From Cellvibrio sp. pealriver (GTDB lineage Bacteria; Pseudomonadota; Gammaproteobacteria; Pseudomonadales; Cellvibrionaceae): a DNA stretch of 64,000 bases. Below the pieces are notes generated by a model. That model was not told the origin of the DNA, ran no database searches, and saw nothing but the letters and a program-made list of their open reading frames with translations. This document shows positions 29,302 through 45,693 of this stretch, in pieces. Position 1 is the first letter of the stretch, and every line of letters begins with the position of its first letter. Made by a program: the position numbers and the translations under genes. The stretch is taken from the NCBI RefSeq assembly GCF_001183545.1, contig NZ_KQ236688.1:124001-188000 (forward strand), in the 5' to 3' direction.

Positions 29302-29351
29302 TTGACAACGTTGTCCAGCAGGAATAGTGTTGGTCAATCGACAACGTTGTC
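29302..29351 (+). promoter_or_regulatory. Promoter with two NagR-type operators before the TonB receptor
   Basis: The 12-bp palindrome GACAACGTTGTC occurs at 29304-29315 and again at 29340-29351, 36 bp apart centre to centre. The first overlaps a -35 TTGACA (29302-29307), which is followed by a 17-bp spacer and -10 TAGTGT (29325-29330). The second would lie just past the transcription start. The palindrome recurs before nagK at 37947. It resembles the LacI-family NagR site described in Alteromonadales; no lacI-type gene is in this window. Confidence 0.75.
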
Positions 29352-29423
29352 TCTATTTGGTTCGTTGTTGAAGAGTTAGATCATTATTAATACACACAAA
29401 TGACAAGTCACGGGAGAATAACC

Positions 29424-32078
29424 ATGCGTAACAAGTTAAGTGATGCGATCAAACTGGCCAATAAGAGTGCATTAATGCTCGGCTCAGTTGCAGCAGTCAC
29501 CATGATGGGTTTTGCAACAACTGCCAATGCACAAGATGCAGGTGCTGAGCCCGAAGAAGTATTGGTAACCGGTATTCGTGGTGCGTTGCAACAAGCGATT
29601 GACGTGAAGCGTAATTCTGACGCCGTTGTAGATGCCATTTCGTCAGAAGACATTGGTAAATTCCCTGATAAAAACCTGGCTGAATCGCTTCAGCGTGTTC
29701 CAGGTGTAACCATTAACCGTGGTTTCACCGGTGAGGGTAACGAAGTATCTATTCGCGGTGTGAACCCACAATTAACCTCGGTATTGCTGAACGGCAACTA
29801 TGTTGCTTCTACTGGTTGGTTCTCACAAACCGCCAACAAGCGCAGCTTCAACATGGATCTGCTGCCATCTGAATTGGTGAAGAAAGTAGAAGTATACAAA
29901 TCTCCAACCGCTTCTTTGGATGAAGGTGGCGTGGGCGGTACTGTAATTGTAGAAACTCGCAAACCTCTTGATCTGGATGCGAACACTGCTTTCGTATCGC
30001 TCGAAGGTATGGCGAACTCAATCGCTGACGGTGAAACCGGTGGCGGTGCTACTGGTATGTACAGCTGGAAAAACGAATCAGAAAGCTTCGGCATCCTTGT
30101 TGCGGCATCGACTCTTGAAACCATCGGTCGTGCACACAAAGCAGAAAACTACTGGGAAGAAGGTTGGTCAGCATCAGGTATTGCTGCGTTTGATCAAGAC
30201 CGTGTACGCGATGTATTTGACATCACCGCACAATGGGCTCCTACCGATGAGTTGACGTTCACTGGTCATTATCTGTCTACCGAAATTGACGCGACCAACA
30301 CTAACCAAAACTTCCTGTTCATCAACTCTCACTGGCGTGATGGTGTACAAAACCAGAACATGATTGTTCCTGGTACCAAAGGTGGTCGCACCACTCCAAA
30401 CAACGGTTTGGCGACTATCGGCGAATACACTTCTGGCGCTTGGTTAGCTCAGGATATCAACAGCCGTGAAGCCAACATCAAGAGTGAAGTGGGTGATGTA
30501 GGATTCAAATACGAAATCGACGGCTTTACCTTGGAAGGTTCTGTGGGCACCACAGAAGCTAACGGCGGTAACGGCGGTAACATCAACTCCTTGTGGGGTA
30601 TTGGTGGTTACGCAATCGATTGGGCTGCACCTGGCGAGCCAGGAAAATCAGTACCATTCATGTATAACGGCAAGCCTGTAACCGTTAAGATCAACATGGA
30701 CGGTAAAACCCAAATGCAACTGGCACCACAGGGTGTAGATGCTGCCGATGGCGAGTGGCAAGCACTGGGTGATGGTCCTTCACGTGAATCCAACGTGTTG
30801 CACGACGAAGAACAATACTTCGAATTGGATGGTAAGTTTGACGTAGAGTTTGGTGCAGTTAACGCGATCAAAACCGGTATCAAAGCACGTACTCACGAAT
30901 TCTCGAACGATGGCTACCGTTACACCTACACCGGTACCGAATTTGCGGGCACTACACTGGCTGATTGGCAAGATGGCGTGATCAAGCACAGCGGCGAAGG
31001 TCTGTTCGGTGGTTCACCAACCCGTATCGCACGTATTGATGCAGACAAAGTAAGAAAAGCATTCAAAGCAAATCAATCTGCTGGCGTACAAAACCGTGGT
31101 GCATGGGCTGAGGTTGAAGAAGACATCACTGCACTTTACACCCAAGCTGATTTCGAAGGTGATGCCTACGCGGGTAACGTTGGTGTGCGTTATGTAACGA
31201 CCGATATTACCGGTACTCGTTACACCATCGCTGCATTGAACGATGTAAACAACAAAACCACTGAGCAAGAAAAAGGTGAATACAGCGACATTCTGCCAAG
31301 CTTCAACTACAAGTTGGACTTGTCTGATGACCTGGTTGCCCGTTTCTCTGCCGCTCGCGTTATGAGCCGCCCAGGTTATAGCGACATGAGTCCTTCATAC
31401 ACCAGCCAAAGTCAGGTTTCTCGTAAAGCTGCCAAAGGTAACGTAGGTCTGGATCCATATCGCGCTACGCAAATGGATTTGGGGGTTGAGTGGTACTTCG
31501 ATGAAAACGCTATCGCATCTGCTGCAGTATTCACCAAAGACATCCGTTCATTCTTGACCAGTTCTGTTGTGATCGAAAAAATCACTGATCCAAGCGGTAC
31601 ATGGGATTACGAAGTGACCACACCTAGCCAAGGTCGTGGTGGTAAGTTGCAAGGTTTGGAATTGCAATATCAACAAACCTTCGGCAACTTCGGTGCTATC
31701 GCTAACTACACTTATGTGGACGGTGAAGGTGAAAACGACAAAGGTGTGAAAGCAGCGTTGCCGGGTACTTCTCGTAACTCATACAACTTGACTGGTTACT
31801 ATGAGACTGACTTGATCTCTGCACGTTTGGCTTATACCCATCGTTCAGAGTTCCTGGCAGAAGGTTTGGGTATTGGTGGTACTGAGTTGTATGCTGACCA
31901 GTCCTTCCTTGATGCTAACGTTACCTGGTTTATCACCGATAACATCAACGTGAGTTTCGATGCGCAAAACCTGTTGGGTGAAGTGACTACCAGTACTCAC
32001 GGTTATGGTCTGGAAACATTGAGTATCTCTAACGACAACGGTACTCGTTACTACGTTAAAGCTTCTATGAAGTTTTAA
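29424..32078 (+). CDS. TonB-dependent outer-membrane receptor, probable GlcNAc/chitooligosaccharide uptake
   Basis: 884 aa. A signal peptide ends near ANAQDAGAEP, a TonB-box-like EEVLVTGIRGALQQA follows, then the plug domain (IGKFPDKNLAESLQRVPGV, VSIRGVNPQLTSVLLNG) and a long 22-strand barrel ending in an aromatic residue (VKASMKF). This is the TonB-Xanth-Caul subfamily, typical of Cellvibrio, Xanthomonas and Caulobacter sugar uptake. ATG 29424 has GGGAG 7 nt upstream; ATG 29400 is an alternative without a site. The substrate is inferred from the operator shared with the nag operon. Confidence 0.92.
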   Translation: MRNKLSDAIKLANKSALMLGSVAAVTMMGFATTANAQDAGAEPEEVLVTGIRGALQQAIDVKRNSDAVVDAISSEDIGKFPDKNLAESLQRVPGVTINRGFTGEGNEVSIRGVNPQLTSVLLNGNYVASTGWFSQTANKRSFNMDLLPSELVKKVEVYKSPTASLDEGGVGGTVIVETRKPLDLDANTAFVSLEGMANSIADGETGGGATGMYSWKNESESFGILVAASTLETIGRAHKAENYWEEGWSASGIAAFDQDRVRDVFDITAQWAPTDELTFTGHYLSTEIDATNTNQNFLFINSHWRDGVQNQNMIVPGTKGGRTTPNNGLATIGEYTSGAWLAQDINSREANIKSEVGDVGFKYEIDGFTLEGSVGTTEANGGNGGNINSLWGIGGYAIDWAAPGEPGKSVPFMYNGKPVTVKINMDGKTQMQLAPQGVDAADGEWQALGDGPSRESNVLHDEEQYFELDGKFDVEFGAVNAIKTGIKARTHEFSNDGYRYTYTGTEFAGTTLADWQDGVIKHSGEGLFGGSPTRIARIDADKVRKAFKANQSAGVQNRGAWAEVEEDITALYTQADFEGDAYAGNVGVRYVTTDITGTRYTIAALNDVNNKTTEQEKGEYSDILPSFNYKLDLSDDLVARFSAARVMSRPGYSDMSPSYTSQSQVSRKAAKGNVGLDPYRATQMDLGVEWYFDENAIASAAVFTKDIRSFLTSSVVIEKITDPSGTWDYEVTTPSQGRGGKLQGLELQYQQTFGNFGAIANYTYVDGEGENDKGVKAALPGTSRNSYNLTGYYETDLISARLAYTHRSEFLAEGLGIGGTELYADQSFLDANVTWFITDNINVSFDAQNLLGEVTTSTHGYGLETLSISNDNGTRYYVKASMKF

Positions 32079-32111
32079 TTAATGGGAAGCTGATGTTAGT
32101 TGCTTCTTAGG

Positions 32112-32142
32112 AAAAGGAAGGCGAAAGCCTTCCTTTTTTTTT
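32112..32142 (+). terminator. Intrinsic terminator after the TonB receptor
   Basis: AAAAGGAAGGC (32112-32122), GAAA loop, GCCTTCCTTTT (32127-32137) and further Ts. It separates the receptor from the downstream halogenase-like gene, which therefore needs its own promoter or read-through. Confidence 0.92.
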
Positions 32143-32217
32143 GCTATATTTTGATATTGTATAGTTACGTTAAATGAGTAACGTTCGTTATTCCCCCGGA
32201 TACTTGCAGGTGTTTTC

Positions 32218-33786
32218 ATGAGCTCTCTTGTCAATCATGTGTTGGTCGTTGGTGGTGGTACAGCGGGTTGGCTGAGCGCGGCAATCCTTGCTAAACAATT
32301 GAATTCAAATCAACCCGGCGCGGTAAAAGTGACCTTGGTTGAATCTCCTGATATTCCTATTCTTGGCGTAGGTGAAGGCACTTGGCCTACTATGCGGACA
32401 ACATTGCAAACTCTGGGCGTGAATGAAAGTGAATTTATGCGTGAGTGCGATGCTACCTTTAAACAAGGATCAGAATTTGTTAATTGGATCGAAACGCCCA
32501 CTTCAGAAAAAACAAATCGTTATTTTCATCCGCTAAGCGCGGTCTTCCATGCATCTTACAATTTTAATTTGGCTCCCTACTGGTTATTGAAAGAAGGTAA
32601 TGATGGATTGCCATATGATTTGGCCGTTGCAACCCAAAGCCGTATTTGTCAGCTTGGATTAGCCCCAAAAAAAATTACTACACCAGAATATGTTGCATTG
32701 CAGAATTATTCTTATCATTTGAACGCAAATAAATTTGCCGATTTTATGGCTAAGTTTGCGGTAAGTAAGCTGGGGGTACAGCATCTACGAGCAAACGTTG
32801 GTCAAGTCAAATTGGATGAGCACGGTAATATTCATTCAGTGTGTACTGACAACCCTGAATGCGCCGAAATAGCCGCCGATTTTTTTATTGATTGCTCCGG
32901 CTCACGGGCGCTGCTAATTGAGAAGGCGCTTGGTATTAAATGGCATAGCATTAGCGATGTTATTTTCAATGATACCGCGTTAGCGATGCAGGTTCCCTAT
33001 GAAAATGCAGATGATCCGATTGCAACCCACACAATAGCTACTGCGCAAGAAAATGGTTGGACATGGGACATCGGTTTACATAATCGGCGTGGTGTCGGTT
33101 ATGTCTACAGTAGTCGTCATACAACCGATGAGCGGGCAGAAGAGGTGCTTCGTCAACATATTGGTAAACAAAGCAATGGTATTGAAGCGCGTAAAATTCC
33201 ACTCAAGCTTGGTTATCGTGAAAAATTCTGGCATAAAAACTGTGTTGCAATTGGAATGTCTGCCGCGTTTATCGAACCTTTGGAGGCTTCAGCAATTTTT
33301 CTGATTGAAGCTGCAGCTAATATGTTAGCTGACCAATTTCCGCGTGATGCGAGCGCGCTTCCGTACGTGGAAGAAAAATACAATAAAACATTTCGTTTGC
33401 GTTGGGATAAGTCAGTGGATTTTGTCAAGTTGCACTACTGCATTTCGCGTCGGCGTGATACCCAATACTGGATTGATAATTGCGACGAAAAGTCTATTCC
33501 TGCAACGCTATTGGCTAAATTGAATCACTGGCGGTCACATATTCCCAGTAAATACGATTTTGATTATGCCTATGAGCCTTTCGTGTTGGATAGCTATTTG
33601 TTTGTGCTTTATGGTATGCAATACCCCACAAACCTTGCTCACAACCAATCTACGTTTCAAGACCGTGAAGTTGCACGAAAAAAATTTATGGAAATTAATA
33701 ATGTCACTGCAATGCTAGCAAAAGAACTACCCAATCAGCGTGAGCTGGTAGAAAAAGTATACAAATACGGTTTTCAGAGAGTGTGA
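32218..33786 (+). CDS. Flavin-dependent tryptophan-halogenase-family protein with WxWxIG motif
   Basis: 522 aa. FAD-binding GGGTAGW lies at residues 12-18. The lysine that carries the haloamine/hypohalous intermediate in this family (Lys79 of PrnA) is present as Lys82 in CDATFKQGSEFVNW. The catalytic-glutamate region FIEPLEASAIF is also present. The diagnostic WxWxIP motif, however, reads W281-T-W283-D-I-G. It is a close paralogue of the gene at 36126-37685. Relatives linked to TonB receptors in other genera have been reported to halogenate indole-type substrates, but the substrate here is unknown. AGGTG precedes the ATG. It converges with the next halogenase gene across a perfect palindrome. 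Confidence 0.88.
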   Translation: MSSLVNHVLVVGGGTAGWLSAAILAKQLNSNQPGAVKVTLVESPDIPILGVGEGTWPTMRTTLQTLGVNESEFMRECDATFKQGSEFVNWIETPTSEKTNRYFHPLSAVFHASYNFNLAPYWLLKEGNDGLPYDLAVATQSRICQLGLAPKKITTPEYVALQNYSYHLNANKFADFMAKFAVSKLGVQHLRANVGQVKLDEHGNIHSVCTDNPECAEIAADFFIDCSGSRALLIEKALGIKWHSISDVIFNDTALAMQVPYENADDPIATHTIATAQENGWTWDIGLHNRRGVGYVYSSRHTTDERAEEVLRQHIGKQSNGIEARKIPLKLGYREKFWHKNCVAIGMSAAFIEPLEASAIFLIEAAANMLADQFPRDASALPYVEEKYNKTFRLRWDKSVDFVKLHYCISRRRDTQYWIDNCDEKSIPATLLAKLNHWRSHIPSKYDFDYAYEPFVLDSYLFVLYGMQYPTNLAHNQSTFQDREVARKKFMEINNVTAMLAKELPNQRELVEKVYKYGFQRV

Positions 33787-33790
33787 TATG

Positions 33791-33828
33791 AACCTGTGCA
33801 ATTTTACAAATGTAAAATTGCACAGGTT
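33791..33828. terminator. 38-bp perfect palindrome between convergent halogenase genes
   Basis: Two 18-bp arms (33791-33808 starting AACCTGTGCA, and 33811-33828 ending TGCACAGGTT) are exact inverted copies separated by AA. They lie 4 bp after one stop codon and 8 bp before the other. Most likely a bidirectional transcription stop. Confidence 0.85.
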
Positions 33829-33836
33829 AATGTCCG

Positions 33837-35348
33837 TTACATTTTATTTGCAGCACAGTGTTGTGCAATAAAATCTTCATGAAACGGCATTAGATCGACA
33901 GATGTTTTTATCGCTTGCCGAATTTTTGACATGCGTTCATGTAAAACAGCATCATCCGTTAAGTCTGTCAGAGGGTGATAGCTGGAAGGCATAAGTCCTT
34001 GACCTTGCATAACTTCAAACCAACTGAGTTCGCTAAACATTTCATAACTTTCACGAAAAATTTTTCCGGTCGATCTGAAGAGTGATATTTTTTGTGCAAG
34101 CGAGTCGGGAATCTCCATTGTTCGGCAATAATTCCAAAAATCAGAATCATCCCGTTCAGTAACGTGATAGTGCAGAATGAGAAAATCCCGAATTTTTTCA
34201 AATTCAAAATGTGTTTGGCGGTTGTATTCAGCAATATTGGCTTGATTAAAATCCTTAGTAGGAAAAAGGCTGATTAATTTAGCCAGGCTGGATTGTATAA
34301 GGTGGATACTTGTTGACTCCAGTGGTTCCATAAATCCGCTAGACAGGCCTACTGCCACACAATTTTTATTCCAAAACTGCTTTCTTTTACCGGTAGTGAA
34401 ACGCAATTGTTTGGGGGCGGCTAATACTTCGCCATCTAAATTGGACAAAAGAATATTTTTAGCTTCTTGATCATCCATAAATTTACTACTGTAGACATGA
34501 CCATTCCCAATCCGATGCTGTAATGGGATTCGCCATTGCCAACCAGCACTGTGTGCAGTGGAACGAGTGTAGGACGTTGGTGCTTTATTACTTGCGCAAG
34601 GAACAGCCCAGGCTCTGTCACATGGCAGCCAGTGCGACCAGTCCTCGTAGCCTGTTTTTAAGGCTTCTTCAATCACAAGACCTTTGAAACCAGAACAGTC
34701 AATAAACAAATCAGCTGCTAATTGCTTCCCGTTTTTTAACGTTACTGACTCGACGAATCCATCACTATCACGCAAATTTACCTGATCAATAGTCGCTTCG
34801 ATACGCTCAACGCCAAGATTTTCTGCGTATTGACGTAAAAACTTTGCGTATAGCCCCGCATCAAAATGATACGCGTAAGGGATATTGGAAAGAGGAGAGT
34901 TTGGATTGTTAATCGGGCGCATAAATTTGCGATTCAGCGCAGCACTGGTGTTTAGGCAATATTCACCTATGTCAGCATCCGGGTTTGTATGATTTAACTT
35001 CAGCCAGTAGTGATAAAAAGGTATCGCATCAACATCGATACCAACGTCACCAAACGCATGAATGTAGGAGTGTCCTTGCTTTCTCCAGTTTACAAATTGA
35101 ATGCCTAGTTTGAATGTCGCTTGAGTTTTTTTGACGAAATCGTTGTCATCCAACCCAAGCATTATATTAAAGCGTTGTATTTGAGGAATCGTTGCCTCGC
35201 CTACACCTACAGTACCTATGTCTTCCGATTCAACCAATCTAATTTTAACTTTTTCCCTGCCAAGAATTTTTGCTAGGGCTGCCGCGCTCATCCAGCCTGC
35301 GGTTCCCCCTCCCACGATGAGGATTGATTCAATATTAGTATGTTGCAT
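33837..35348 (-). CDS. Flavin-dependent tryptophan-halogenase-family protein, canonical WxWxIP
   Basis: 503 aa. FAD motif GGGTAGW (13-19), family lysine at Lys80 in QATFKLGIQFVNW, intact WxWxIP (W270-Q-W-R-I-P275) and FMEPLESTSIHLI carrying the catalytic-glutamate region. This is the one paralogue of the three with a full canonical motif set, so it is the best candidate for real halogenation, dependent on FADH2 from a reductase encoded elsewhere. It is the last gene of a minus-strand group halogenase-SapC-halogenase, 49 bp after sapC. Confidence 0.88.
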   Translation of the reverse strand: MQHTNIESILIVGGGTAGWMSAAALAKILGREKVKIRLVESEDIGTVGVGEATIPQIQRFNIMLGLDDNDFVKKTQATFKLGIQFVNWRKQGHSYIHAFGDVGIDVDAIPFYHYWLKLNHTNPDADIGEYCLNTSAALNRKFMRPINNPNSPLSNIPYAYHFDAGLYAKFLRQYAENLGVERIEATIDQVNLRDSDGFVESVTLKNGKQLAADLFIDCSGFKGLVIEEALKTGYEDWSHWLPCDRAWAVPCASNKAPTSYTRSTAHSAGWQWRIPLQHRIGNGHVYSSKFMDDQEAKNILLSNLDGEVLAAPKQLRFTTGKRKQFWNKNCVAVGLSSGFMEPLESTSIHLIQSSLAKLISLFPTKDFNQANIAEYNRQTHFEFEKIRDFLILHYHVTERDDSDFWNYCRTMEIPDSLAQKISLFRSTGKIFRESYEMFSELSWFEVMQGQGLMPSSYHPLTDLTDDAVLHERMSKIRQAIKTSVDLMPFHEDFIAQHCAANKM

Positions 35349-35397
35349 TAAGTGCCTGGCTTCTTATAGTTTGAGCATGTCGGCTCATGGGTGAGAA

Positions 35398-36093
35398 TTA
35401 TTTTATTGACTTCATTTGAACAAGCGTGGACATATTGCCCAGCGAAGCCAAATGAGCAAAAACGGCTGGTAAATAATTTTTGTGTCTCAACTCAAGAAAA
35501 GTCGCGTCAGAGAGATCATTTATTTTTTTATGGTCTATCGCATACAAACCATTTAGCGAATAAGATCCAGACTCTTCACCGCTTGTATTGATGGTTAAAT
35601 TAAAAGGGGATAAAAGATTTTTTTCTGCTATGTAACGGATAAATTCCCGGGTTACAGGTGTCTGGCTTACGAACGTTGAAAGGCGTTCTTTTACACCTTT
35701 TAAATATTCGCTTTCGCTGCCATCACTATTAAAAAGCTCATTGCCTTCTGTTTCGTTAAATAGTGGACTGCTCATGTCTGCACACAGGCTTGCAGTATCG
35801 GGTGCAATTAAAAATGGATAACCTCTGATTGCTGCTGGAATGTAAGAAGCTGCCCAATGCTCTTCGCTATAAAACAAATTTTCATTTGGCTGCAGGCCAA
35901 GCATTGCAACACAACGAAACTCGCCGGTTTCAGCGTCTTTAATAAAAACAATCGGATAGCAGATGGAAGCAGGTACAAATTCATGTACTTGCAAAATAGC
36001 GATGTGCTGATTTTTTGTTTGCTGATAATTTCGGTTGTTTTTTATTTTTAGATTTTTGTGGACTTCTTTGTTTAAGACGACAATGTTGCTCAT
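35398..36093 (-). CDS. SapC family protein
   Basis: 231 aa, soluble, no signal peptide. The pattern matches the SapC family, named after a Campylobacter S-layer-region protein and of unknown function: YQQTKNQHIAILQVHEFVPA, an FIKDAETGEFRCVAMLGL segment, GYPFLIAPDTASLCADM and the GLYAIDHKKINDLSDATFLELRHK tail. These proteins recur beside TonB receptors and tryptophan-halogenase homologues in Cellvibrio-, Xanthomonas- and Caulobacter-like genomes, so a shared function is likely. It lies between two halogenase genes (32 and 49 bp gaps) in the same direction. Confidence 0.85.
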   Translation of the reverse strand: MSNIVVLNKEVHKNLKIKNNRNYQQTKNQHIAILQVHEFVPASICYPIVFIKDAETGEFRCVAMLGLQPNENLFYSEEHWAASYIPAAIRGYPFLIAPDTASLCADMSSPLFNETEGNELFNSDGSESEYLKGVKERLSTFVSQTPVTREFIRYIAEKNLLSPFNLTINTSGEESGSYSLNGLYAIDHKKINDLSDATFLELRHKNYLPAVFAHLASLGNMSTLVQMKSIK

Positions 36094-36125
36094 GATTTTC
36101 CCGTGATTTTTAGTAAATGATAATT

Positions 36126-37685
36126 TTATATGGACTGAAAGTTGTATGTGCGTATCTTATTAAGCAAATCGCGATGCGTAGGTAGTTCTTTTGCGGCTAT
36201 CTCTGCCAGCTCTTTTACGCGAGAAAACTGCTTTTGAGCATAGTCGACCATTTGGTAGGCTGATTTTTTATGGTTAATATCCATTTGGAAATCCAATCCG
36301 TAGAGAATGTATTGATAACTTTCCAAAGGAAATGGCTCATAAACATTATCAAAGTCATAGCGGCTTGGTGGGTGCGATTTCCAATGTTCCAGTCTGTCCA
36401 TTAGAGCAGTTGGAACCGTCTCTGGATTGCGGTTGTCTATCCAAAATTGAGTGTCATCCCTGCGTGAGAGAAAGTAATGCATTTTGATAAACTCAACCGA
36501 TTTATCCCAGCGGTACAAAAACGAACGGTTGAATTTTTTAGCGACAGATTGCATCTCATGTCGTGTACGTGGGAACTGGTCTGCCAGCATATTGCCTGCT
36601 GCCTCAATCAAGAAGATAGCCGATGCTTCCAGTGGTTCTATGAATGCCGCTGACATACCTATGGCAACACAGTTTTTTTTCCAAAAACGTTCTCTCCAAC
36701 CAATGTTCATCTTAATTCTGCGTGAAGCCAAGTGGTCAGCTTGTGGGCCTAAATAGCGTCTCAGGGTTTGCTCCGCGCTTTCATGGTCGGTGTAATGGCT
36801 GGAATATACATAGCCTGTACCGCGACGGTTGGTTAAGCCTATATCCCATATCCAGCCATAATTTTGAGCGGTAGAAAGTGTTTGTGTGGCGACAGGGTCG
36901 TTGTGCTCATCCTGATAGGGCACTTGAATGGCAATGGCATGATCGACAAACAATTTGTCCGAAATGCTTTTAAATGGAACGTCGAGCGTTTTTCCGATAA
37001 TGAGTGCAGAGAAGCCGCTGCAATCCACAAAAAACTCAGCTGCAATAACGCCATGCTCTTCGGTATCAATTGATGTGATGTATCCATCCTGATCTTGATT
37101 GACCTGTCTTATGTGCCCGAAGAGATGTTTAACTCCTAATTTCTCGGTGCAATGGGTTTTTAAGAAATCAGCGAAGCGTGCAGCATCAAGATGATAGGCG
37201 TAGCTTTGTATGCCCTCATACTGTGCAGTTGTTATTTTTTTTGGAGCCAATCCCTTTTCGCATACGGAACCTTGGAATGAAACTGCATCGGCATAGCTTA
37301 TGTCGCCTGCGTAGCCTAGGCTCCAATAGGGAGCCAGATTAAATTGTTCAGGATTTTGCAGGGATGTGAAGTGATTATAGTAAAAATTTGATTGGTCGTT
37401 TGAAGGTGTTTTTCTCCAATTAATAAATTTACTGCCTTGCTTAAAGCTTGCATTGCAATAACGCATAAACTCAGCTTCATCTATCCCTAATTTTTGAAGT
37501 GTGGCACGCATTGTTGGCCATGTGCCTTCGCCCACGCCGATAGTGGGAACATCTGGAGATTCAATTAATGTTACTTGTACTGCATCAGTTGACTTGCTAT
37601 TGAGTTCCTTTGCCAGTTTTGCAGCAGTTAACCAGCCTGCAGTGCCTCCGCCAACAATTAATATTTGTTTTACTAAGTCACTCAT
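36126..37685 (-). CDS. Flavin-dependent tryptophan-halogenase-family protein with WxWxIG motif
   Basis: 519 aa. FAD motif GGGTAGW (12-18), Lys82 in CNASFKQGSKFINW and FIEPLEASAIF are present, while the tryptophan motif reads W278-I-W280-D-I-G. It is strongly similar along its length to the protein encoded at 32218-33786, so the two arose by duplication. The start is set at 37685: GAGCGGA lies upstream, and the longer frame begins with TTG. It is the first gene of the minus-strand group, with a possible promoter (TTGACT, 18 bp, TAGTGT) within about 60 bp upstream, and is divergent from the nag operon. Confidence 0.87.
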   Translation of the reverse strand: MSDLVKQILIVGGGTAGWLTAAKLAKELNSKSTDAVQVTLIESPDVPTIGVGEGTWPTMRATLQKLGIDEAEFMRYCNASFKQGSKFINWRKTPSNDQSNFYYNHFTSLQNPEQFNLAPYWSLGYAGDISYADAVSFQGSVCEKGLAPKKITTAQYEGIQSYAYHLDAARFADFLKTHCTEKLGVKHLFGHIRQVNQDQDGYITSIDTEEHGVIAAEFFVDCSGFSALIIGKTLDVPFKSISDKLFVDHAIAIQVPYQDEHNDPVATQTLSTAQNYGWIWDIGLTNRRGTGYVYSSHYTDHESAEQTLRRYLGPQADHLASRRIKMNIGWRERFWKKNCVAIGMSAAFIEPLEASAIFLIEAAGNMLADQFPRTRHEMQSVAKKFNRSFLYRWDKSVEFIKMHYFLSRRDDTQFWIDNRNPETVPTALMDRLEHWKSHPPSRYDFDNVYEPFPLESYQYILYGLDFQMDINHKKSAYQMVDYAQKQFSRVKELAEIAAKELPTHRDLLNKIRTYNFQSI

Positions 37686-37755
37686 ATTCCGCTCGATGTT
37701 CAATTAAAAATCACATCACACTAACTGCTTGCGAGTAACCAAGTCAAGCCGAAAA

Positions 37756-37784
37756 CGGTAGCAAAAAAATCAAAAAAGCTACCG
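37756..37784. repeat. Inverted repeat upstream of the halogenase-SapC group
   Basis: CGGTAGC (37756-37762) and GCTACCG (37778-37784) enclose an A-rich 15-bp centre. It lies just above the proposed -35 of the minus-strand group and could be an operator or a divergent-transcription stop. The rest of 37785-37944 shows nothing assignable. Confidence 0.4.
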
Positions 37785-37944
37785 CTTTGAACTAAGGAAA
37801 AAAGGCGGTGAAGAGAGATTGATTTATCGTCTCTGATTGGGATTTATATGAACAATGAATGTGTTAAATCATTGCTTCCCAAAAGCGATTTTTGAAAAAA
37901 AAGGTAAATTCCCGTCCGAATGAGAGATTGAGCTTAAAATTTCT

Positions 37945-37973
37945 TTGACAACGTTGTCCGGTAGGCGTAATCT
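37945..37973 (+). promoter_or_regulatory. Promoter overlapped by NagR-type operator before the nag operon
   Basis: -35 TTGACA (37945-37950), a 17-bp spacer and -10 TAATCT (37968-37973). The palindrome GACAACGTTGTC (37947-37958) covers the -35, so a bound repressor would exclude polymerase. It is identical to the two copies before the TonB receptor. Transcription would start near 37980, about 250 nt before nagK. Confidence 0.75.
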
Positions 37974-38070
37974 AACCCTGTCCGATGATGACTTCTGGAT
38001 CTGATATCTCTCCTTATCGGGTTCAGTATCATGGGGCATGAGTTCTCTAGAGCTGTAGTAGTGGTCTTGT

Positions 38071-38102
38071 GGTTAGTGTCCTGCGGGGCACTAACCTTTT
38101 TT
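38071..38102 (+). terminator. Strong intrinsic terminator inside the nagK leader
   Basis: An 11-bp stem GGTTAGTGTCC / GGGCACTAACC (38071-38096, one G-T pair, TGCG loop) followed by TTTTTT. It lies about 120 nt after the operator-controlled start and 128 bp before nagK. No reading frame precedes it on this strand. It therefore ends a short leader RNA or acts as an attenuator. Confidence 0.8.
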
Positions 38103-38230
38103 AACTGTCTGTTATGATGACGACTTTGCTTGGGGTTGTTGCCCGTGCATAAGAAGAGTCAAGTTTTTTGAGTATCTGGCAGCTGATGACATGTGCCGGG
38201 TATTTGCTCTAAAAAATAATGAGGTAGATC

Positions 38231-39157
38231 ATGGCAAAGATGCCACTTGGCGAACAACCCTTGTTTATCGGTATTGATGGCGGAGGTACCAAGTGTCGTG
38301 CCAGTATCATGACTGCTGACTTACAGGTGTTAGGTACCGGTGTCGGTGGTCCTGCCAATCCTTTCCAAGGCGTTCAACAAGCCAAAGATTCTATCCGTAC
38401 TGCTGCTGAACTTGCATTGATTGATGCAGGTTTGCCTCCTTCTGCAATGAGTGAGTTAATCGCTGGCGCTGGTCTTGCCGGTGTGAATGTTCCAAGCCTT
38501 TATGATGTTATGTCGGCGTGGGAACATCCTTTCAAAGAAATGCATCTCACTACCGATCTTCATATCGCCTGCCTTGGTGCCCACAACCGTGACGAAGGTG
38601 CGGTAATGATTTGTGGTACTGGTTCGTGCGGCTACTCTTTTGTAAATAACGAGTCCCTGTTTATCGGTGGGCATGGTTTTCCTATCGGCGATAAAGGCAG
38701 TGGTGCCTGGATGGGCCTTGAAGCTATTCAGGCAATCCTGTTGGCCTATGATGATTTGGGGCCGCAAACCAAACTGAGTGAATCTATTGGTGAGTTCCTG
38801 CAGGCATCGGGTGTTATGATCGTTGATCGCATGTTTGGAGCCAAGCAGGGCGATTATGCCAAGTTTGCTATTTTTGTAGTCGATGCTGCAGATGCAGGTG
38901 ATGCCGTTGCGATTGGTATTGCCAAAGAAGGTGCGGCTTACATGAGTGGTATTGCGCGTAAGCTTTGGGCAACCAACCCTGGGCGTATGTCAATTATTGG
39001 TGGCCTTGCTCCACGCCTGATTCCCTGGATGGAAAAAGATATGGCGGAAAAGCTTTCTCCTGCGCTATATCAACCGGAATTTGGTGCCGTGTATTTCGCC
39101 AAACAGCGTTTTAAATATATTAATAATAATCAGAGTGTTTTAACCACTGCTAACTAA
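38231..39157 (+). CDS. nagK: N-acetylglucosamine kinase, BadF/BcrA ATPase type
   Basis: 308 aa cytoplasmic kinase of the actin-like ATPase fold that makes GlcNAc-6-phosphate from imported GlcNAc. Motifs: phosphate-1 IGIDGGGTKCRAS near the N-terminus, MICGTGSCGY (phosphate-2) and GDKGSGAWMGLEA. It is the first gene of nagK-nagP-nagX-nagA-nagB. GAGGT sits 6 nt before the ATG. The operator-promoter lies about 260 bp upstream with a terminator in between, so expression probably needs antitermination or a second promoter. Specificity for GlcNAc is inferred from the operon. Confidence 0.9.
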   Translation: MAKMPLGEQPLFIGIDGGGTKCRASIMTADLQVLGTGVGGPANPFQGVQQAKDSIRTAAELALIDAGLPPSAMSELIAGAGLAGVNVPSLYDVMSAWEHPFKEMHLTTDLHIACLGAHNRDEGAVMICGTGSCGYSFVNNESLFIGGHGFPIGDKGSGAWMGLEAIQAILLAYDDLGPQTKLSESIGEFLQASGVMIVDRMFGAKQGDYAKFAIFVVDAADAGDAVAIGIAKEGAAYMSGIARKLWATNPGRMSIIGGLAPRLIPWMEKDMAEKLSPALYQPEFGAVYFAKQRFKYINNNQSVLTTAN

Positions 39158-39173
39158 CGCGAGAACCATACAA

Positions 39174-40478
39174 ATGAATAACGAAGCTGTCGCTGTGCAT
39201 TCCCCCCCCGGAAACTCGAAAAGTATTGTGTTGCCACTGGCAATGATCGCTGGGCTATTTTTTATTTTTGGTTTTGTCACTTGGCTTAATGGTTCGTTAA
39301 TGCCTTATTTGGAAGTTGTGTTGAACCTGACACCCTTTCAAGCTTCTTTTATTTTGTTTTCTTTTTATATCGCCGTTACCGTTTTCTCACTGCCATCTTC
39401 CTGGGTTATCCGCAAAGTAGGATATAAAAATGGAATGGCGATCGGTTTGGGCGTTATGGCCTTGGCTGCGTTACTTTATATTCCTGCGGCAAAAACCCAT
39501 TGGTTCGCGTTGTTTTTAGTTGCGCAATTTATGATGGGGGCAGGGCAGACATTAGTGCAAACAGCGGTGAACCCCTATGTTGTGAAAATGGGGCCTGAAG
39601 AATCTGCCGCACGTCGTATTAGCTTGATGGGCATTCTCAATAAATCGGCCGGTATTGTTGCGCCTTTGGTTTTCACCGCATTGATTCTGGGTGGAATGAG
39701 TGGTCATCCAACTACAACACCATCGCCCGAAGAAATTGAACAAATGGCGAGTAATTTGGTGTTGCCATACATCTACATGGCGCTGGTGATCGGTGCTGTG
39801 GCGCTTTTGGTAAAAATATCGTCTTTGCCTGAATTGAATTTGCATGAAGAAGAGAATGATCATCTTCCCATACGCGAAGTGCTGCAATTTCCCAGCTTGG
39901 TGTTAGGCGTTATCGCGCTTTTCTTATACGTAGGTGTTGAAGTTATCGCAGGTGATACGATTGGTGCTTACGGCCGCAGTATAGGTTTCACCAATTTCTC
40001 TATTCTGACCTCCATTACCATGACCTGTATGGTGATAGGTTATATCTTGGGGATATTGTTGATTCCACGTGTCATTTCCCAGCAAAAAATGCTGTCGGTT
40101 TCTGCAGTACTCGGTGTGCTGCTGAGCTTGGCGGTGGTATTCGGCAGTAATGAGTCTACGGTTATCAGTTCAATGTTTGCCTTTCTGGGCGCACCTTCTA
40201 TTCCGGATACTATTTTGTGCATTGCGCTTCTGGGCTTGGCGAATGCCATTGTGTGGCCTGCGGTATGGCCATTGGCATTGAGTGGTTTGGGTAAATACAC
40301 CAGCACAGGTGCGGCCTTGTTGATCATGGCTATTGCCGGCGGTGCTGTGGTGCCGGTCATTATGGGGGCGCTGTCAACGGTTGTTGATCGCCAAACCGCT
40401 TACATAGTGATGACACCTTGCTACTTATTTATTCTTTTCTATGCGGTCAAAGGACACAAACTGCGCAGCTGGAAATAA
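39174..40478 (+). CDS. nagP: GlcNAc permease NagP, FucP-type major facilitator
   Basis: 434 aa, 12 membrane segments, of the sugar:H+ symporter group related to FucP and glucose/galactose porters. Visible are FFIFGFVTWLNGSLMPYLE in the first segments, the FMMGAGQTLVQTAVNPYVVKMGPE stretch typical of FucP-like proteins and a central acidic loop (NLHEEENDHLP). NagP takes the place of the PTS in GlcNAc uptake in Shewanella-like bacteria. It starts 16 bp after nagK; the next gene's start codon lies 47 bp past its stop. With NagK it forms a non-PTS uptake route. Confidence 0.9.
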   Translation: MNNEAVAVHSPPGNSKSIVLPLAMIAGLFFIFGFVTWLNGSLMPYLEVVLNLTPFQASFILFSFYIAVTVFSLPSSWVIRKVGYKNGMAIGLGVMALAALLYIPAAKTHWFALFLVAQFMMGAGQTLVQTAVNPYVVKMGPEESAARRISLMGILNKSAGIVAPLVFTALILGGMSGHPTTTPSPEEIEQMASNLVLPYIYMALVIGAVALLVKISSLPELNLHEEENDHLPIREVLQFPSLVLGVIALFLYVGVEVIAGDTIGAYGRSIGFTNFSILTSITMTCMVIGYILGILLIPRVISQQKMLSVSAVLGVLLSLAVVFGSNESTVISSMFAFLGAPSIPDTILCIALLGLANAIVWPAVWPLALSGLGKYTSTGAALLIMAIAGGAVVPVIMGALSTVVDRQTAYIVMTPCYLFILFYAVKGHKLRSWK

Positions 40479-40525
40479 ATTTTTTCCTCACACGTTTTAC
40501 CGCTACATCGTCTGCGAGGTATCCG

Positions 40526-41614
40526 ATGGTTAAACAACGTTTTCTGGCTTTGGATGTGATGCGTGGTTTGACCCTCGCGTTGATGATTTTGGTAAATACT
40601 CCGGGTTCCTGGGAGTTTGTGTACGCTCCACTGCTCCATGCTGATTGGCATGGAGCAACGCCCACTGATTTTGTATTCCCTTTCTTTATGTTTATTGTTG
40701 GCTCGGCCATGTACTTTTCTGTGCGTGGTTTGTCCCAGCTTTCGTTTGCGCAACAATCCAAAAAAATCCTGCGCCGTGTAGCTTTGTTGTTTTTAATCGG
40801 TGTTTTGTTATCTGCATATCCATTCACCGAGAGTTTGAGTGAGTGGCGCGTTATGGGAGTGTTGCAGCGTATCGCACTCGCATATGGTTTTGCGGCATTT
40901 ATTATTTTGTATTTTGGATTTTCGGGGCGCGTTGTTATCAGCACCATTTTGTTGGTGGGATATTGGGCTCTGTTAAATATGTCATCGGATCCTTACAGTC
41001 TTGAGCACAATGTTGTGCGTCAGTTTGATCTGAGCGTGCTGGGCGCTAGCCATTTGTGGCAGGGTAAGGGTATGCCGTTTGATCCAGAAGGTATCCTCAG
41101 TACATTTCCATCGATTGTGAATGTGATCATCGGTTTTGAAGCGACGCGTGTTCTATTGGCGAGCGAAGATAAAGAAAAAGCACTGAGCAAATTATTTGTG
41201 TCCGCATTGGCGTTGATTGGTTTGGCGTTGTTGTGGAATACCGTATTTCCTATCAATAAATCCTTGTGGACCAGCCCGTTCGTTGTGTTGACCTGTGGCG
41301 TTGCTATTTTGATGTTGATTTTGCTGGTCAAGCTGGAGCAATCCTCGCTAGCAAACGCTATCAAACCTGTGTATCACAGCTTTGAAATTATTGGTAAAAA
41401 CCCGCTGTTTATTTATGTATTGTCGGGTTTATTGGCAACAACCATGTATTTAATTCCTGTCGGCAATGAATCACTTTACACCGCTTTGTATGGAGCGTTC
41501 CGCAGTGTGACCGACCCTTATTTTGCCTCGTTTATTTTTGCGCTTTTACAAGTGGCTATTTTGTGGTTTGTGGCTTGGGTACTGCACAAGCGCAATATTA
41601 TTATCAGCTTATAA
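40526..41614 (+). CDS. nagX: NagX, membrane protein related to heparan-glucosaminide acetyltransferase
   Basis: 362 aa with about ten hydrophobic segments. The N-terminus RFLALDVMRGLTLALMILVN (residues 4-23) and DFVFPFFMFIVGSAM are hallmarks of the DUF5009/HGSNAT-like acyltransferase family. NagX-type genes are common in non-PTS nag operons. The activity is not established; acetyl transfer to glucosamine or processing of chitin-derived sugars are possibilities. ATG 40526 has GAGGT 6 nt upstream; the longer frame overlaps nagP by 61 bp and adds no family sequence. Confidence 0.88.
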   Translation: MVKQRFLALDVMRGLTLALMILVNTPGSWEFVYAPLLHADWHGATPTDFVFPFFMFIVGSAMYFSVRGLSQLSFAQQSKKILRRVALLFLIGVLLSAYPFTESLSEWRVMGVLQRIALAYGFAAFIILYFGFSGRVVISTILLVGYWALLNMSSDPYSLEHNVVRQFDLSVLGASHLWQGKGMPFDPEGILSTFPSIVNVIIGFEATRVLLASEDKEKALSKLFVSALALIGLALLWNTVFPINKSLWTSPFVVLTCGVAILMLILLVKLEQSSLANAIKPVYHSFEIIGKNPLFIYVLSGLLATTMYLIPVGNESLYTALYGAFRSVTDPYFASFIFALLQVAILWFVAWVLHKRNIIISL

Positions 41615-41658
41615 AGAATTTTCTGCGCTAAGGCAGATGTTGTTATACAGGTATGGCT

Positions 41659-42816
41659 ATGAAACAGGCTTTGGTGGGCGCGCGCATTTTTACCGGAGAC
41701 ACTTTTCTGGAAAATTATGCGGTTGTGATCGCTGACGAAAAAATAGAAGCGCTGGTTCCTGCTGCGGAGTTGGATGCGAATATTCCGCAAATTTTATTGG
41801 ATGGTGGCATCCTTGCGCCTGGTTTTATCGATCTGCAAGTGAATGGCGGTGGCGGTGCATTTTTTACCAATGACACCAGCGTGAGCGCTATCAAAACTAT
41901 GTTGGACGGGCACCGCCCAACTGGCACAACCTCGATGTTACCTACCTTAATCAGCGATACCCGCGAAGTTCACCAAGCGGGCGTTAAAGCAGTTGCTGAC
42001 GCGGTTGCTGCGGGTATGAAAGGTGTTTTGGGTGTACATGTGGAGGGACCGTTTTTTGATATGGCGCGCCGCGGTGCACACAACGAACGCTATATCCGCA
42101 CGATGGAGCAAGCCGATATTGATTGGCTGGTTGCCTCTGTTAAAAGTCAGCATGAATTTAAAGTAATGCTCACGCTTGCCCCGGAACATGCGGCACCCGG
42201 CCAGATAGCACAATTGGCATCAGCAGGTGTTGTGGTCTGCGCAGGTCATACCGATGCGCATTACGAATCGGTTGTCAGCGCCTTAAAAGAAGGTCTTAGC
42301 GGTTTTACACATTTATACAACGCGATGCGCCCGACCACTGGCCGCGAACCTGGTGTGGTAGGCGCGGCATTGGAAGATGGTAATAGTTGGTGCGGCATTA
42401 TTATTGATACGTACCATGTGCACGCTGCATCAGCACGCGTTGCCTGCGCAGCAAAACCCAAAGGCAAAATCTATTTAGTGACAGATGCAATGTCTACTGT
42501 CGGCTCACCTGAAAAATCATTCCAGATTTACGGCGAAACCATTTATGAAAAAGAGGGTTGCCTCGTTAATGCAGAAGGTCGGTTGGCAGGCAGCGCGATT
42601 GGCATGATTGACGCTGTGCGCTTGAATACGCAATGGGTGGGAATGGAGTTAAGTGAGAGCCTGCGTATGGCTTCGTTATACCCCGCTGAATTTATGCAGG
42701 TCGATAATTCGCTTGGTCGCATCCAACCGGACTACCGCGCAGATTTGGTACATTTTACCGATGGCTATCGTGTAACCCACACATGGGTTGCGGGCGATTT
42801 CTTACGTCATTCGTAA
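41659..42816 (+). CDS. nagA: N-acetylglucosamine-6-phosphate deacetylase
   Basis: 385 aa amidohydrolase that turns GlcNAc-6-P into glucosamine-6-P and acetate. Motifs in order: GGILAPGFIDLQVNGGGG, HVEGPFFDMARRGAHN (metal-binding glutamate), AGHTDA, HLYNAMRPTTGREPG and LVTDAMSTVG (catalytic aspartate). ATG 41659 has an AGG at 7 nt; ATG 41653, two codons earlier, lies too close to it. It is the fourth gene of the nag operon. In the metal site, the first-shell histidines of amidohydrolases (HxH) read as LQVNG here, which is normal for the one-metal NagA group. Confidence 0.93.
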   Translation: MKQALVGARIFTGDTFLENYAVVIADEKIEALVPAAELDANIPQILLDGGILAPGFIDLQVNGGGGAFFTNDTSVSAIKTMLDGHRPTGTTSMLPTLISDTREVHQAGVKAVADAVAAGMKGVLGVHVEGPFFDMARRGAHNERYIRTMEQADIDWLVASVKSQHEFKVMLTLAPEHAAPGQIAQLASAGVVVCAGHTDAHYESVVSALKEGLSGFTHLYNAMRPTTGREPGVVGAALEDGNSWCGIIIDTYHVHAASARVACAAKPKGKIYLVTDAMSTVGSPEKSFQIYGETIYEKEGCLVNAEGRLAGSAIGMIDAVRLNTQWVGMELSESLRMASLYPAEFMQVDNSLGRIQPDYRADLVHFTDGYRVTHTWVAGDFLRHS

Positions 42817-42875
42817 TTTTTTCTGCAAGTTAAGTTGTTTATTTTTTCGGTCAATGCCACTCACTGGAGTGTTCA

Positions 42876-43670
42876 ATGAAAGTTGTTATTTTGAAAGATG
42901 CCGCTGCTGTTGCGAATTACGGCGCGAATATTTTTATCAAACAAATTAGCCGTAAACCCGATTCAGTATTGGGCTTGGCAACCGGCTCAACACCGGTAGC
43001 TCTATATAAAGAGCTTATTGCAGCCTATCAGTCCGGGCGCGTGTCTTTCAAAAATGTCAGCAGTTTTAATCTGGATGAATATTTGGGGTTGCCTGCAACC
43101 CATCCGCAAAGTTATCGCTACTTTATGAACCAACAATTATTTGATCATATTGATATCGATAAAAATTCAACCTTTGTTCCACCAGGTGATGCAGAAGATC
43201 CGTTTACCGCGTGCGCACTTTATGAAACTGCAATCAAACAAAAAGGCGGCATTGATGTGCAGTTGCTAGGCATTGGCCGTAATGGTCATATTGGTTTTAA
43301 TGAGCCATCATCATCGCTGATGTCGCGCACCCGTGTGAAAACGTTAACCCGTGCAACCATTGATGATAATGCGCGCTTTTTTGCGGCAGATGAGTACCAG
43401 CCACACTTGTCTATCACCATGGGGATAGGCACCATTCTTGAATCGAAAAAAGTAGTGTTACTGGCGACCGGCGAAAATAAAGCAGAAGCGATTAAGGCTA
43501 CTGTTGAAGGTCCATTAACCGCTGCTTGCCCTGCATCGGCATTGCAACTGCATGAGCAGGTTGTATTGGTCATTGATGAAGCCGCTGCTTCACACTTGTC
43601 AGATGTAGAGTTCTACAAGCACATTGAGAGCGAAAACCAAAAATTATTGGAGCGTTTGGGGCGCAATTAA
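42876..43670 (+). CDS. nagB: Glucosamine-6-phosphate deaminase, NagB type I
   Basis: 264 aa, the length of classical hexameric NagB; it converts glucosamine-6-P to fructose-6-P and ammonia. Motifs: [24 protein letters not shown] (catalytic aspartate region) and [13 protein letters not shown] with the catalytic histidine. GGAG lies 7 nt before the ATG. Shewanella-type operons often use the unrelated SIS-domain NagB-II; here the classical enzyme is found. It is the last gene of the operon and is closed by a terminator. Confidence 0.95.
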
Positions 43671-43688
43671 CTCCCATTTGGCGTCATC

Positions 43689-43716
43689 AAAAGGCCGGCT
43701 TTGCCCGGCCTTTTTT
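43689..43716 (+). terminator. Intrinsic terminator of the nag operon
   Basis: AAAAGGCCGG (43689-43698), loop CTTTGC, CCGGCCTTTTTT (43705-43716). It lies 18 bp after nagB. Confidence 0.93.
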
Positions 43717-43878: not shown

Positions 43879-45399
43879 ATGCCAACCGTGATTCGCCAGC
43901 AAGACCTGATCGACAGCGTCGCCGATGCGCTGCAATTTATCTCTTATTACCACCCCGTGGATTTTATCCAGGCCATCCATAAAGCCTACGAGCGCGAGCA
44001 AAACAAAGCCGCCAAGGACGCGATGGCGCAAATTCTTATCAACTCACGTATGTGTGCCATGGGGCATCGCCCGATTTGCCAGGACACCGGCATTGTCACT
44101 GTGTTTGTGACCGTGGGGATGGATGTTCAATGGGATGCGCAGATGAGCCTCACCGACATGGTGAACGAAGGTGTTCGCCGCGCTTACAACAATCCCGATA
44201 ACGTATTGCGTGCATCGATTCTGGCCGATCCGGACGGTGCCCGTAAAAACACCGGTGACAACACCCCTGCTGTGATCCACTACAACATAGTTCCGGGCAA
44301 TACCGTTGATGTACACGTAGCGGCTAAAGGTGGCGGATCTGAAGCAAAAACAAAATTTGCCATGCTCAACCCCTCTGACTCGGTTGTGGATTGGGTGTTG
44401 AAAGTCGTGCCCGAAATGGGTGCAGGTTGGTGCCCACCGGGCATGCTGGGAATCGGCATTGGTGGCACGGCGGAAAAAGCCATGCTGCTTGCCAAAGAGG
44501 CACTGCTTGATCCTGTCGATATCCAGGAGCTTCAAGCGCGCGGAGCCAGCGACCGCTACGAAGAATTGCGCATTGAGCTGTACGACAAAATTAATCGCTT
44601 GGGCATTGGTGCCCAAGGGCTGGGCGGTTTGACTACTGTAGTTGATGTGAAAATCAAAGATTACCCAACCCACGCTGCTAACAAAGCGATCGCGATCATC
44701 CCTAACTGCGCTGCAACGCGCCACGCACATTTTGTGTTGAATGGTTCTGGCCCTGCGTTCCAAACGCCACCGGCGTTGGAGGATTATCCGGAAATCAGTT
44801 GGGATGTAGGTAGCAGTGTTCGCCGCGTCAATCTGGATACCGTCACGCCAGAAGATGTGCTGGAGTGGAAAACCGGTGAGACGATTTTGCTCTCCGGCAA
44901 AATGTTAACCGGCCGCGATGCCGCACATAAAAAGATGACCGACCTGCTTGCCAAAGGTGAGCCGCTGCCAGTGGATCTCAAAGGTCGCTTCATTTATTAC
45001 GTCGGACCGGTTGACCCGGTGCGTGATGAAGTAGTCGGTCCAGCCGGTCCAACAACGGCTACCCGTATGGATAAATTCACTCGCACTATGTTGGAACAAA
45101 CGGGCTTGCTCGGGATGATCGGCAAATCCGAACGTGGCCCAACCGCCATTGAGGCGATACGCGATAACAAATCCGTTTACCTGATGGCAGTTGGCGGAGC
45201 GGCCTATCTGGTTGCGCAAGCGATCAAGTCATCCAAGGTATTGGGTTTTCCGGAATTGGGGATGGAAGCCATCTACGAATTTGATGTAAAAGACATGCCA
45301 GTGACAGTGGCGGTGGACTCACGTGGTGAATCCGTTCACACCACCGGCCCGCAAATCTGGAAGGCCAAAATAGAAGAAGGTGTAGTGACAGTCCAATAA
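43879..45399 (+). CDS. fumA: Class I fumarate hydratase (iron-sulfur)
   Basis: 506 aa cytoplasmic [4Fe-4S] enzyme of the citric acid cycle, fumarate to L-malate. Motifs include RMCAMGHRPICQDTGIVTVF with cluster-region cysteine, GGGSEAKTKFAMLNPSDS, GIGIGGTAEKAM, the second-domain NCAATRHAHFVLNGSGPAF, GPAGPTTATRMDKF and a C-terminal FPELGMEAIYEFDVKDMPVTVA-type segment. It is a single gene with its own promoter (possible -10 TAGAAT about 60 bp upstream) and terminator. The exact physiological paralogue (FumA, FumB or a tartrate dehydratase relative) is judged from full-length similarity. Confidence 0.93.
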   Translation: MPTVIRQQDLIDSVADALQFISYYHPVDFIQAIHKAYEREQNKAAKDAMAQILINSRMCAMGHRPICQDTGIVTVFVTVGMDVQWDAQMSLTDMVNEGVRRAYNNPDNVLRASILADPDGARKNTGDNTPAVIHYNIVPGNTVDVHVAAKGGGSEAKTKFAMLNPSDSVVDWVLKVVPEMGAGWCPPGMLGIGIGGTAEKAMLLAKEALLDPVDIQELQARGASDRYEELRIELYDKINRLGIGAQGLGGLTTVVDVKIKDYPTHAANKAIAIIPNCAATRHAHFVLNGSGPAFQTPPALEDYPEISWDVGSSVRRVNLDTVTPEDVLEWKTGETILLSGKMLTGRDAAHKKMTDLLAKGEPLPVDLKGRFIYYVGPVDPVRDEVVGPAGPTTATRMDKFTRTMLEQTGLLGMIGKSERGPTAIEAIRDNKSVYLMAVGGAAYLVAQAIKSSKVLGFPELGMEAIYEFDVKDMPVTVAVDSRGESVHTTGPQIWKAKIEEGVVTVQ

Positions 45400-45437
45400 A
45401 CATTGGCATTTAATATTGCATCGCTATAGATGATCAT

Positions 45438-45470
45438 AAAAAACCGGCAGTGAATAACTGCCGGTTTTTT
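45438..45470 (+). terminator. Intrinsic terminator of fumA
   Basis: AAAACCGGCAG, loop TGAATAA, CTGCCGGTTTT and further Ts. The following 45471-45693 is AT-rich intergenic DNA with no feature I can name. Confidence 0.92.
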
Positions 45471-45693
45471 TATGGCCGAAAATTAGAAAATATAAAAAAT
45501 AGAAATAAAAAAATAATGCATAGGCGTTTTCATTCTACGTTTTTTGGATACATATCAAGTCGCATTTCGATTATTAGTAAAAAATCGGTTAAACGAATTG
45601 CAAACAGAGCAAGCTGAAATAAACCTGCTAGTGTTAATCCATACTGTTCAAAAACAGGCGAGATTCTTGCCGCCCTGACTGTACAGTTTCACC

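Follow-up and report, generated by a model that had tools for sequence, protein, structure and literature searches.

Why should homologues of flavin-dependent halogenases (FDHs; PF04820) and a SapC protein be encoded within a locus for the use of N-acetylglucosamine (GlcNAc)? The question arises in a 64,000-nucleotide stretch of Cellvibrio sp. pealriver (contig NZ_KQ236688.1, positions 124,001 to 188,000; the window below means this whole stretch), where a TonB-dependent receptor, three FDH homologues and SapC adjoin nagK-nagP-nagX-nagA-nagB. The receptor and halB1 lie on one strand, halA-SapC-halB2 follow on the opposite strand, and the nag operon comes next (Table 1). An earlier note on this DNA had placed halogenase homologues and SapC between the receptor and the nag operon, and open reading frames (ORFs) and profile matches put them there. 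The answer we propose, with about even confidence, is that the FDHs and SapC form an accessory kit dedicated to the receptor, which acts on the receptor polypeptide, probably by modification, and not in sugar catabolism.

The window locus is a CUT/nag-type locus with such a dedicated kit. It has a TonB receptor, an inner-membrane sugar transporter and catabolic enzymes, which also stand together in the CUT loci (PMC1790865) and the Shewanella nag loci (PMC2996990); the words 'halogenase' and 'SapC' occur nowhere in the main texts of these two papers. Our literature search, which most subscription papers and preprints lay outside, found no paper tying these FDHs or SapC to TonB receptors.

An FDH/SapC set beside a receptor, as in the window, is a general arrangement, which occurs at glycan loci of several types. 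The source genome (4.43 Mb) contains 29 full FDH genes (32 PF04820 rows, from which three weak or fragmentary ones were dropped), nine SapC genes and 28 rows above the cut-off for receptors of the TIGR01782 family. Such a receptor lies within 5 kb of 27 of the 29 FDHs and within 10 kb of 28, and 14 of the 16 FDH clusters have one at this distance or less. Random placement, repeated 20,000 times, gave 1.4 such clusters on average and never more than 8; the linkage exceeds chance. Counted from the receptors, 16 of 28 have an FDH within 5 kb, and eight of the nine SapC genes are at most 1.2 kb from an FDH. At another locus of the genome (L035, 2499027-2501040; L numbers are our locus labels), a TonB receptor without an FDH nearby matches in two frames.

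The same linkage was observed in three near-complete genomes of congeners, where 50 of 55 FDHs are within 5 kb of a receptor. For this count, nine weak rows were removed from 65 FDH rows and one split pair was merged, three rows below the cut-off were removed from 104 receptor rows and two split pairs were merged (leaving 99), and the ends of the receptors are approximate; a draft genome, G012, was also searched but is not part of the count. The 15 congeners searched have 11-31 PF04820 rows per genome, and eight genomes from other families of the same order have none or two to three weak ones. Caulobacter crescentus has matches to PF04820, SapC and TIGR01782 alike. One halB protein of the source genome is 91% identical to a protein of Cellvibrio sp. 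OA-2007. Beyond the genus, we took the loci of the best 80 of at least 586 halB relatives in named genomes. These 80 loci, all from Gamma- and Alphaproteobacteria (Shewanella, Colwellia, Thalassotalea, Pseudoalteromonas, Microbulbifer, Novosphingobium, Sphingomonas and Azospirillum among the hosts), include a receptor in 77, SapC in 76, Cupin_8 in 20, DUF6445 in 19 and nagK in 14, so that the claimed recurrence in several genera holds. Seventeen of the 80 stretches are shorter than 20 kb; among the 63 longer ones, a receptor is present in 62 and SapC in 60. The comparison rate, taken from the density in the source genome (28 receptors in 4.43 Mb) and not from random stretches, is about 0.14 TIGR01782 receptors per 21.5 kb. 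The models were made from source-genome genes, with SapC from a 65-sequence alignment and DUF6445 and the nag genes represented by single sequences, and the final counts were made on all stop-to-stop frames; a first pass (70 receptors, 70 SapC) had missed genes hidden by overlapping false ORFs.

A new observation concerns the nag site. From congener to congener, the receptor (in its mature part) and the kit differ there as one block, whereas nagK and the upstream flank are retained. We traced the site in 16 congeners through a conserved element 5' of nagK and found the order upstream gene, receptor, kit, element, nagK. The upstream gene aligns with the DUF3014 gene of the window in 15 of the 16 (L165 is cut short), and NagK is 83-93% identical to that of the window in 12 of 16; the receptors are 37-42% identical to the window receptor in 15, and the cut-short L165 is 32% identical. 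The kit consists of halB and DUF6445 in 11 congeners, of halB, halC and DUF6445 in two (L159, L164), and in single cases of SapC and Cupin_8 without an FDH (L167), of two halB genes (L172), or of halB and an unnamed ORF of 222 amino acids (L163). Between the window and L160, NagK is 93% and DUF3014 84% identical, and receptor and halB are 41% and 39% identical. L167 and L168 share 95% in NagK and 39% in the receptor, and their kits are SapC with Cupin_8 versus halB with DUF6445. NagK is 97% identical both in L158/L159 (receptor 55%, halB 52%) and in L162/L163 (receptor 61%, halB 53%). In L159/L164, NagK is 93%, the receptor 92% and halB 82% identical, and halC is present in both.

Partial Mantel correlations of distances gave the same result. 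Given NagK, halB follows the receptor (0.90, p = 0.0002), and given the receptor it does not follow NagK (-0.19, p = 0.87); this analysis used 15 of the 17 loci, leaving out L165 (cut short) and L167 (no halB). For DUF6445 in 13 loci, the corresponding values are 0.73 (p = 0.0008) and 0.23 (p = 0.10). Along the receptor, residues 10-54, comprising the signal peptide, track NagK (0.90) and not halB (0.06), residues 40-84 give a mixed signal (0.52, 0.57), and the parts from residue 70 to the C-terminus track halB (0.69-0.89; NagK 0.04-0.32). The barrel is correlated with halB given the plug (0.42, p = 0.003), and the plug is not given the barrel (0.11, p = 0.29). In the four swap pairs, continuous DNA similarity stops within the receptor gene and returns at the element before nagK; L158/L159 and L162/L163 have patches of 64-77% DNA similarity inside the exchanged block. 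Our results show that the kit tracks the receptor, not the sugar.

Exchange was also found at a second site, between GH81 and GH3 genes. Three of seven close congeners (L175, L176, L178; GH81 91-94% identical) carry there a receptor closer to another paralogue (40-49%), with a different kit in L176 and L178 (L175 is truncated by the end of its contig). The L177 FDH has its best match in a different paralogue (61%), whereas its SapC and Cupin_8 match the same ones. Variation is greater in five more distant congeners, and in L183 GH81 and GH3 are present but a receptor is not.

Does the kit act on what enters through the receptor? The earlier note had offered two functions, namely that the flavin enzymes with SapC modify or sense an incoming molecule such as an aromatic compound, or that they act on the receptor system itself; the second is the one we infer, and the first is disfavoured. 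FDHs act on aromatic rings, and the operator-like palindromes in common (Table 1) would suit a kit that modifies or senses an aromatic or other ligand, but this appears very unlikely, since the glycan enzymes beside kit receptors vary from locus to locus and the kit at the nag site varies, even to the absence of any FDH, while nagK stays. In addition, no signal peptide was seen by eye at the N-termini of the kit enzymes, which are presumably cytoplasmic. We scanned 20 chosen genes of kit loci, two of which proved to be kit genes. The 18 others include glycan enzymes (GH95, GH13, two GH3, GH9, GH81, GH20, GH18 and GH43-like), a CBM6 protein, galactose-1-phosphate uridylyltransferase, an MFS transporter and an SMP-30-like protein, together with five that are uninformative about the ligand (GGDEF, a peptidase, adenylosuccinate synthetase, DUF7133 and LysR); for L017, L018 and L021 a glycan gene was not among the scanned genes, and for L013 and L030 only kit genes were scanned. 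No common aromatic ligand is apparent among these 18 neighbours.

The FAD motif, the catalytic Lys, WxWxI(P) and the active-site Glu, which are the hallmarks of FDHs, are present in all three window FDHs, with WxWxIG instead of WxWxIP in the halB type, and 27 of the genome's 29 FDHs retain both the catalytic Lys and WxW. The two paralogues without them, 2662652-2664211 (L021) and 3925131-3926816 (L031), each adjoin a motif-bearing FDH and could be substrate-binding partners; congeners also have PF04820 rows of similarly low score. Near full-length homology connects halA with BrvH (6frl; E = 8e-156) and Xcc4156 (6y1w; E = 2e-159), and halB1 with 2pyx (E = 3e-145), all of which share the FAD motif, the catalytic Lys and WxWxI with the window FDHs. 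Unlike BrvH and Xcc4156, the window FDHs belong to receptor loci. According to the papers on BrvH and Xcc4156, both enzymes are active on indoles and refuse free tryptophan, peptides are suggested as substrates, and no native substrate is assigned; the substrate lid for free tryptophan of the PrnA and RebH type is reported absent from Xcc4156. Since the kit varies with the receptor rather than with the sugar, and since these relatives refuse free tryptophan and peptides are suggested for them, we regard the receptor polypeptide as the most likely substrate.

We suggest that the kit enzymes would act on the receptor polypeptide before or during its export. In this scheme, halogenation or hydroxylation of aromatic side chains of the receptor would fall to the FDHs, and hydroxylation of other side chains to the Cupin_8 and DUF6445 proteins found in sister loci, while SapC would keep hold of the exported protein or present it. 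Such treatment would tune or shield a protein exposed at the surface, or aid its folding. In the window, halB1, halA, SapC and halB2 would be the kit serving a receptor for GlcNAc or chitooligosaccharides. The spacers among the receptor and kit genes (139, 50, 49 and 32 bp) could hold a very small precursor gene at most. Within or beside its kit loci, the genome has one DUF6445 gene (PF20043) and five genes of Cupin_8 type, of which one was tested (PF13621) and the rest were judged similar by eye. The proteins of both kinds have HxD...H patterns, seen by eye, which we take to be those of iron/2-oxoglutarate oxygenases. QhpG, LodB and GoxB are flavoenzymes that modify a protein or peptide and are flavoproteins distantly related to the window FDHs. 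Membership of the window FDHs in these families was rejected, the scores (20-38 bits) being under the cut-offs of 240-400.

The name SapC is also used in S-layer loci of Campylobacter fetus. The Pfam family name is the same, whereas the window SapC stands beside FDHs and TonB receptors; many SapC genes of the wider class are near surface-protein or secretion genes, in which they resemble that of C. fetus. SapC was found in 21 of 143 genomes of this class. In many Gammaproteobacteria-type genomes (L037-L056), it is near very long ORFs and secretion genes, mostly as a single copy and without an FDH. Among the 20 contexts taken from 23 matches outside the source genome (in five, SapC itself was not shown by the ORF choice), an ORF of at least 1,800 amino acids is present in 11 and an FDH-receptor pair in two, counts that have no background rate beside them. 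Six of eight scanned neighbours gave matches (RTX repeats, HlyD, OEP, ShlB/POTRA, a TPS domain and SecA), and away from receptor loci SapC thus seems to be partnered most often by a large exported protein. It is possible, though improbable, that the kit aids the biogenesis of large exported proteins as a chaperone or quality control, with the FDHs as scaffolds or a flavin redox check that leaves no stable modification. The proximity of SapC to RTX, type I, two-partner and SecA-type secretion genes, the loss of the catalytic Lys and WxW in two FDH paralogues and the confident predicted fold of the window SapC, which is unmatched among solved structures in the PDB, all agree with such a role. 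However, the great majority of the FDHs retain both motifs, the Cupin_8 and DUF6445 partners resemble oxygenases in their motifs, and nearly half of the receptors of the same family are free of a nearby FDH.

Several points weigh against our proposal that the kit acts on the receptor polypeptide. Adjacent genes travel together when crossovers fall outside them, so that the exchange is no proof of a functional tie. At a site with a kit-less receptor, the receptor was replaced in one of 13 congeners (L196, 36% identity; the control is unmatched for divergence), and thus exchange is not confined to kit-bearing receptors; at this site, L186 has one extra receptor. Twelve of the 28 receptors lack an FDH within 5 kb, and the FDH at 4146058 is 204 kb from the nearest receptor. 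Receptors with a linked FDH are barely grouped on the receptor tree of the genome (7 changes, a number as low in 67 of 500 shuffles), and no residue diagnostic of FDH-linked receptors was found in our receptor comparisons. The halogenating activity of the window FDHs is itself predicted from motifs. The matches to QhpG, LodB and GoxB carry little weight, as the same FDHs also match the small-molecule halogenase CmlS (35-46 bits). Within the genome, receptor and halB distances are not significantly correlated (r = 0.32, p = 0.22, 6 loci). In favour of the proposal, receptor distances are correlated with those of halA (r = 0.66, p = 5e-5, 12 loci) and of SapC (r = 0.66, p = 0.003, 7 loci), although co-duplication would also produce this.

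One explanation without any functional tie is that the FDHs and SapC have a part in some other process common to these loci, such as making an antimicrobial or a signal whenever a glycan is consumed, and hitch-hike on receptor replacement. Physical linkage alone could account for the co-exchange, and the composition of the kit is loose. However, contiguity in one receptor replacement explains neither the receptor-halA and receptor-SapC correlations nor the association of SapC with other proteins that appear to be exported; nearly all FDHs of one genome are close to a receptor, and no natural-product gene is among the 18 non-kit neighbours scanned. We therefore regard this explanation as unlikely. 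A wider form of our proposal, held with a little less than even confidence, is that Proteobacteria have a widespread, receptor-specific modification of outer-membrane proteins, in which cytoplasmic FDHs, SapC and JmjC-like and other oxygenases would place halogen or hydroxyl groups on the TonB receptor as it is being made, and in which mature receptors and their modifying kits would circulate as exchangeable cassettes at fixed sites.

The operator region of the earlier note was recovered as a pattern, GACAACGTTGTC, at 29304, 29340 and 37947, and the minus-strand group of halA, SapC and halB2, starting at 37703, does begin beside it. The 13-mer TGACAACGTTGTC gave six matches with at most one mismatch on both strands, versus 0.03 expected, and genome-wide the 12-mer palindrome has 13 copies versus two for the pattern read backwards. 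Another copy, at 3612015, is 60 bp before the receptor ORF of a different FDH locus. The third palindrome is 243 bp upstream of halB2, yet also at the head of the nagK side. An inverted repeat between the convergent halB1 and halA is a possible bidirectional terminator. Between the third palindrome and nagK there is a structured RNA (fold z -4.8), which is conserved over at least 155 nt with 76-94% identity in 13 congeners and the source genome (21 genomes searched) and stands before nagK in all 14; 45 nt are invariant and seven pairs have compensatory changes. No Rfam family matched it and a target search found none; it is a candidate for a small RNA or for an attenuator in the leader of the nag operon. 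This element is the conserved nagK-side edge of the exchanged block. Shortly 3' of nagB, at 43879-46884, are a fumarate-hydratase-like gene and a chemotaxis-receptor-like ORF.

Table 1. Features of the receptor, kit and nag genes in the window (positions of the whole stretch)
Feature	Position	Strand	Score or remark
Operator-like palindrome GACAACGTTGTC, first copy	29304..29315		Upstream of receptor
Operator-like palindrome GACAACGTTGTC, second copy	29340..29351		
TonB-dependent receptor, TIGR01782 (Xanthomonas-Caulobacter type), 892 aa	29400..32078	+	611 bits, cut-off 310
halB1, FDH homologue; nearest solved structure by sequence 2pyx	32218..33786	+	PF04820 417 bits, cut-off 21; catalytic Lys and WxWxI kept
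Inverted repeat, 24-nt arms	33785..33834		Arms 92% complementary
halA, FDH homologue of the BrvH/Xcc4156 branch	33837..35348	-	PF04820 674 bits, cut-off 21; catalytic Lys and WxWxIP kept
SapC, 231 aa	35398..36093	-	PF07277 228 bits, cut-off 28.9
halB2, second FDH of the 2pyx branch	36126..37703	-	PF04820 412 bits, cut-off 21; motifs kept
Operator-like palindrome GACAACGTTGTC, third copy	37947..37958		Between divergent halB2 and nagK
Structured RNA 5' of nagK	37975..38100	+	Terminator-like hairpin at end
nagK, N-acetylglucosamine kinase	38231..39157	+	
nagP, GlcNAc MFS transporter	39174..40478	+	
nagX-like, transmembrane glucosamine N-acetyltransferase family	40418..41614	+	158.7, below curated cut-off 480
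nagA, GlcNAc-6-P deacetylase	41653..42816	+	
nagB, glucosamine-6-phosphate deaminase	42876..43670	+	

Many genes bear the name 'tryptophan halogenase', and the solved relatives of the window FDHs are without a known native substrate. From linkage and cassette exchange, the neighbouring receptor emerges as a candidate substrate. If this is true, there would be an unrecognised modification on outer-membrane receptors, which could affect uptake and the binding of phages and bacteriocins, and SapC would gain a role.

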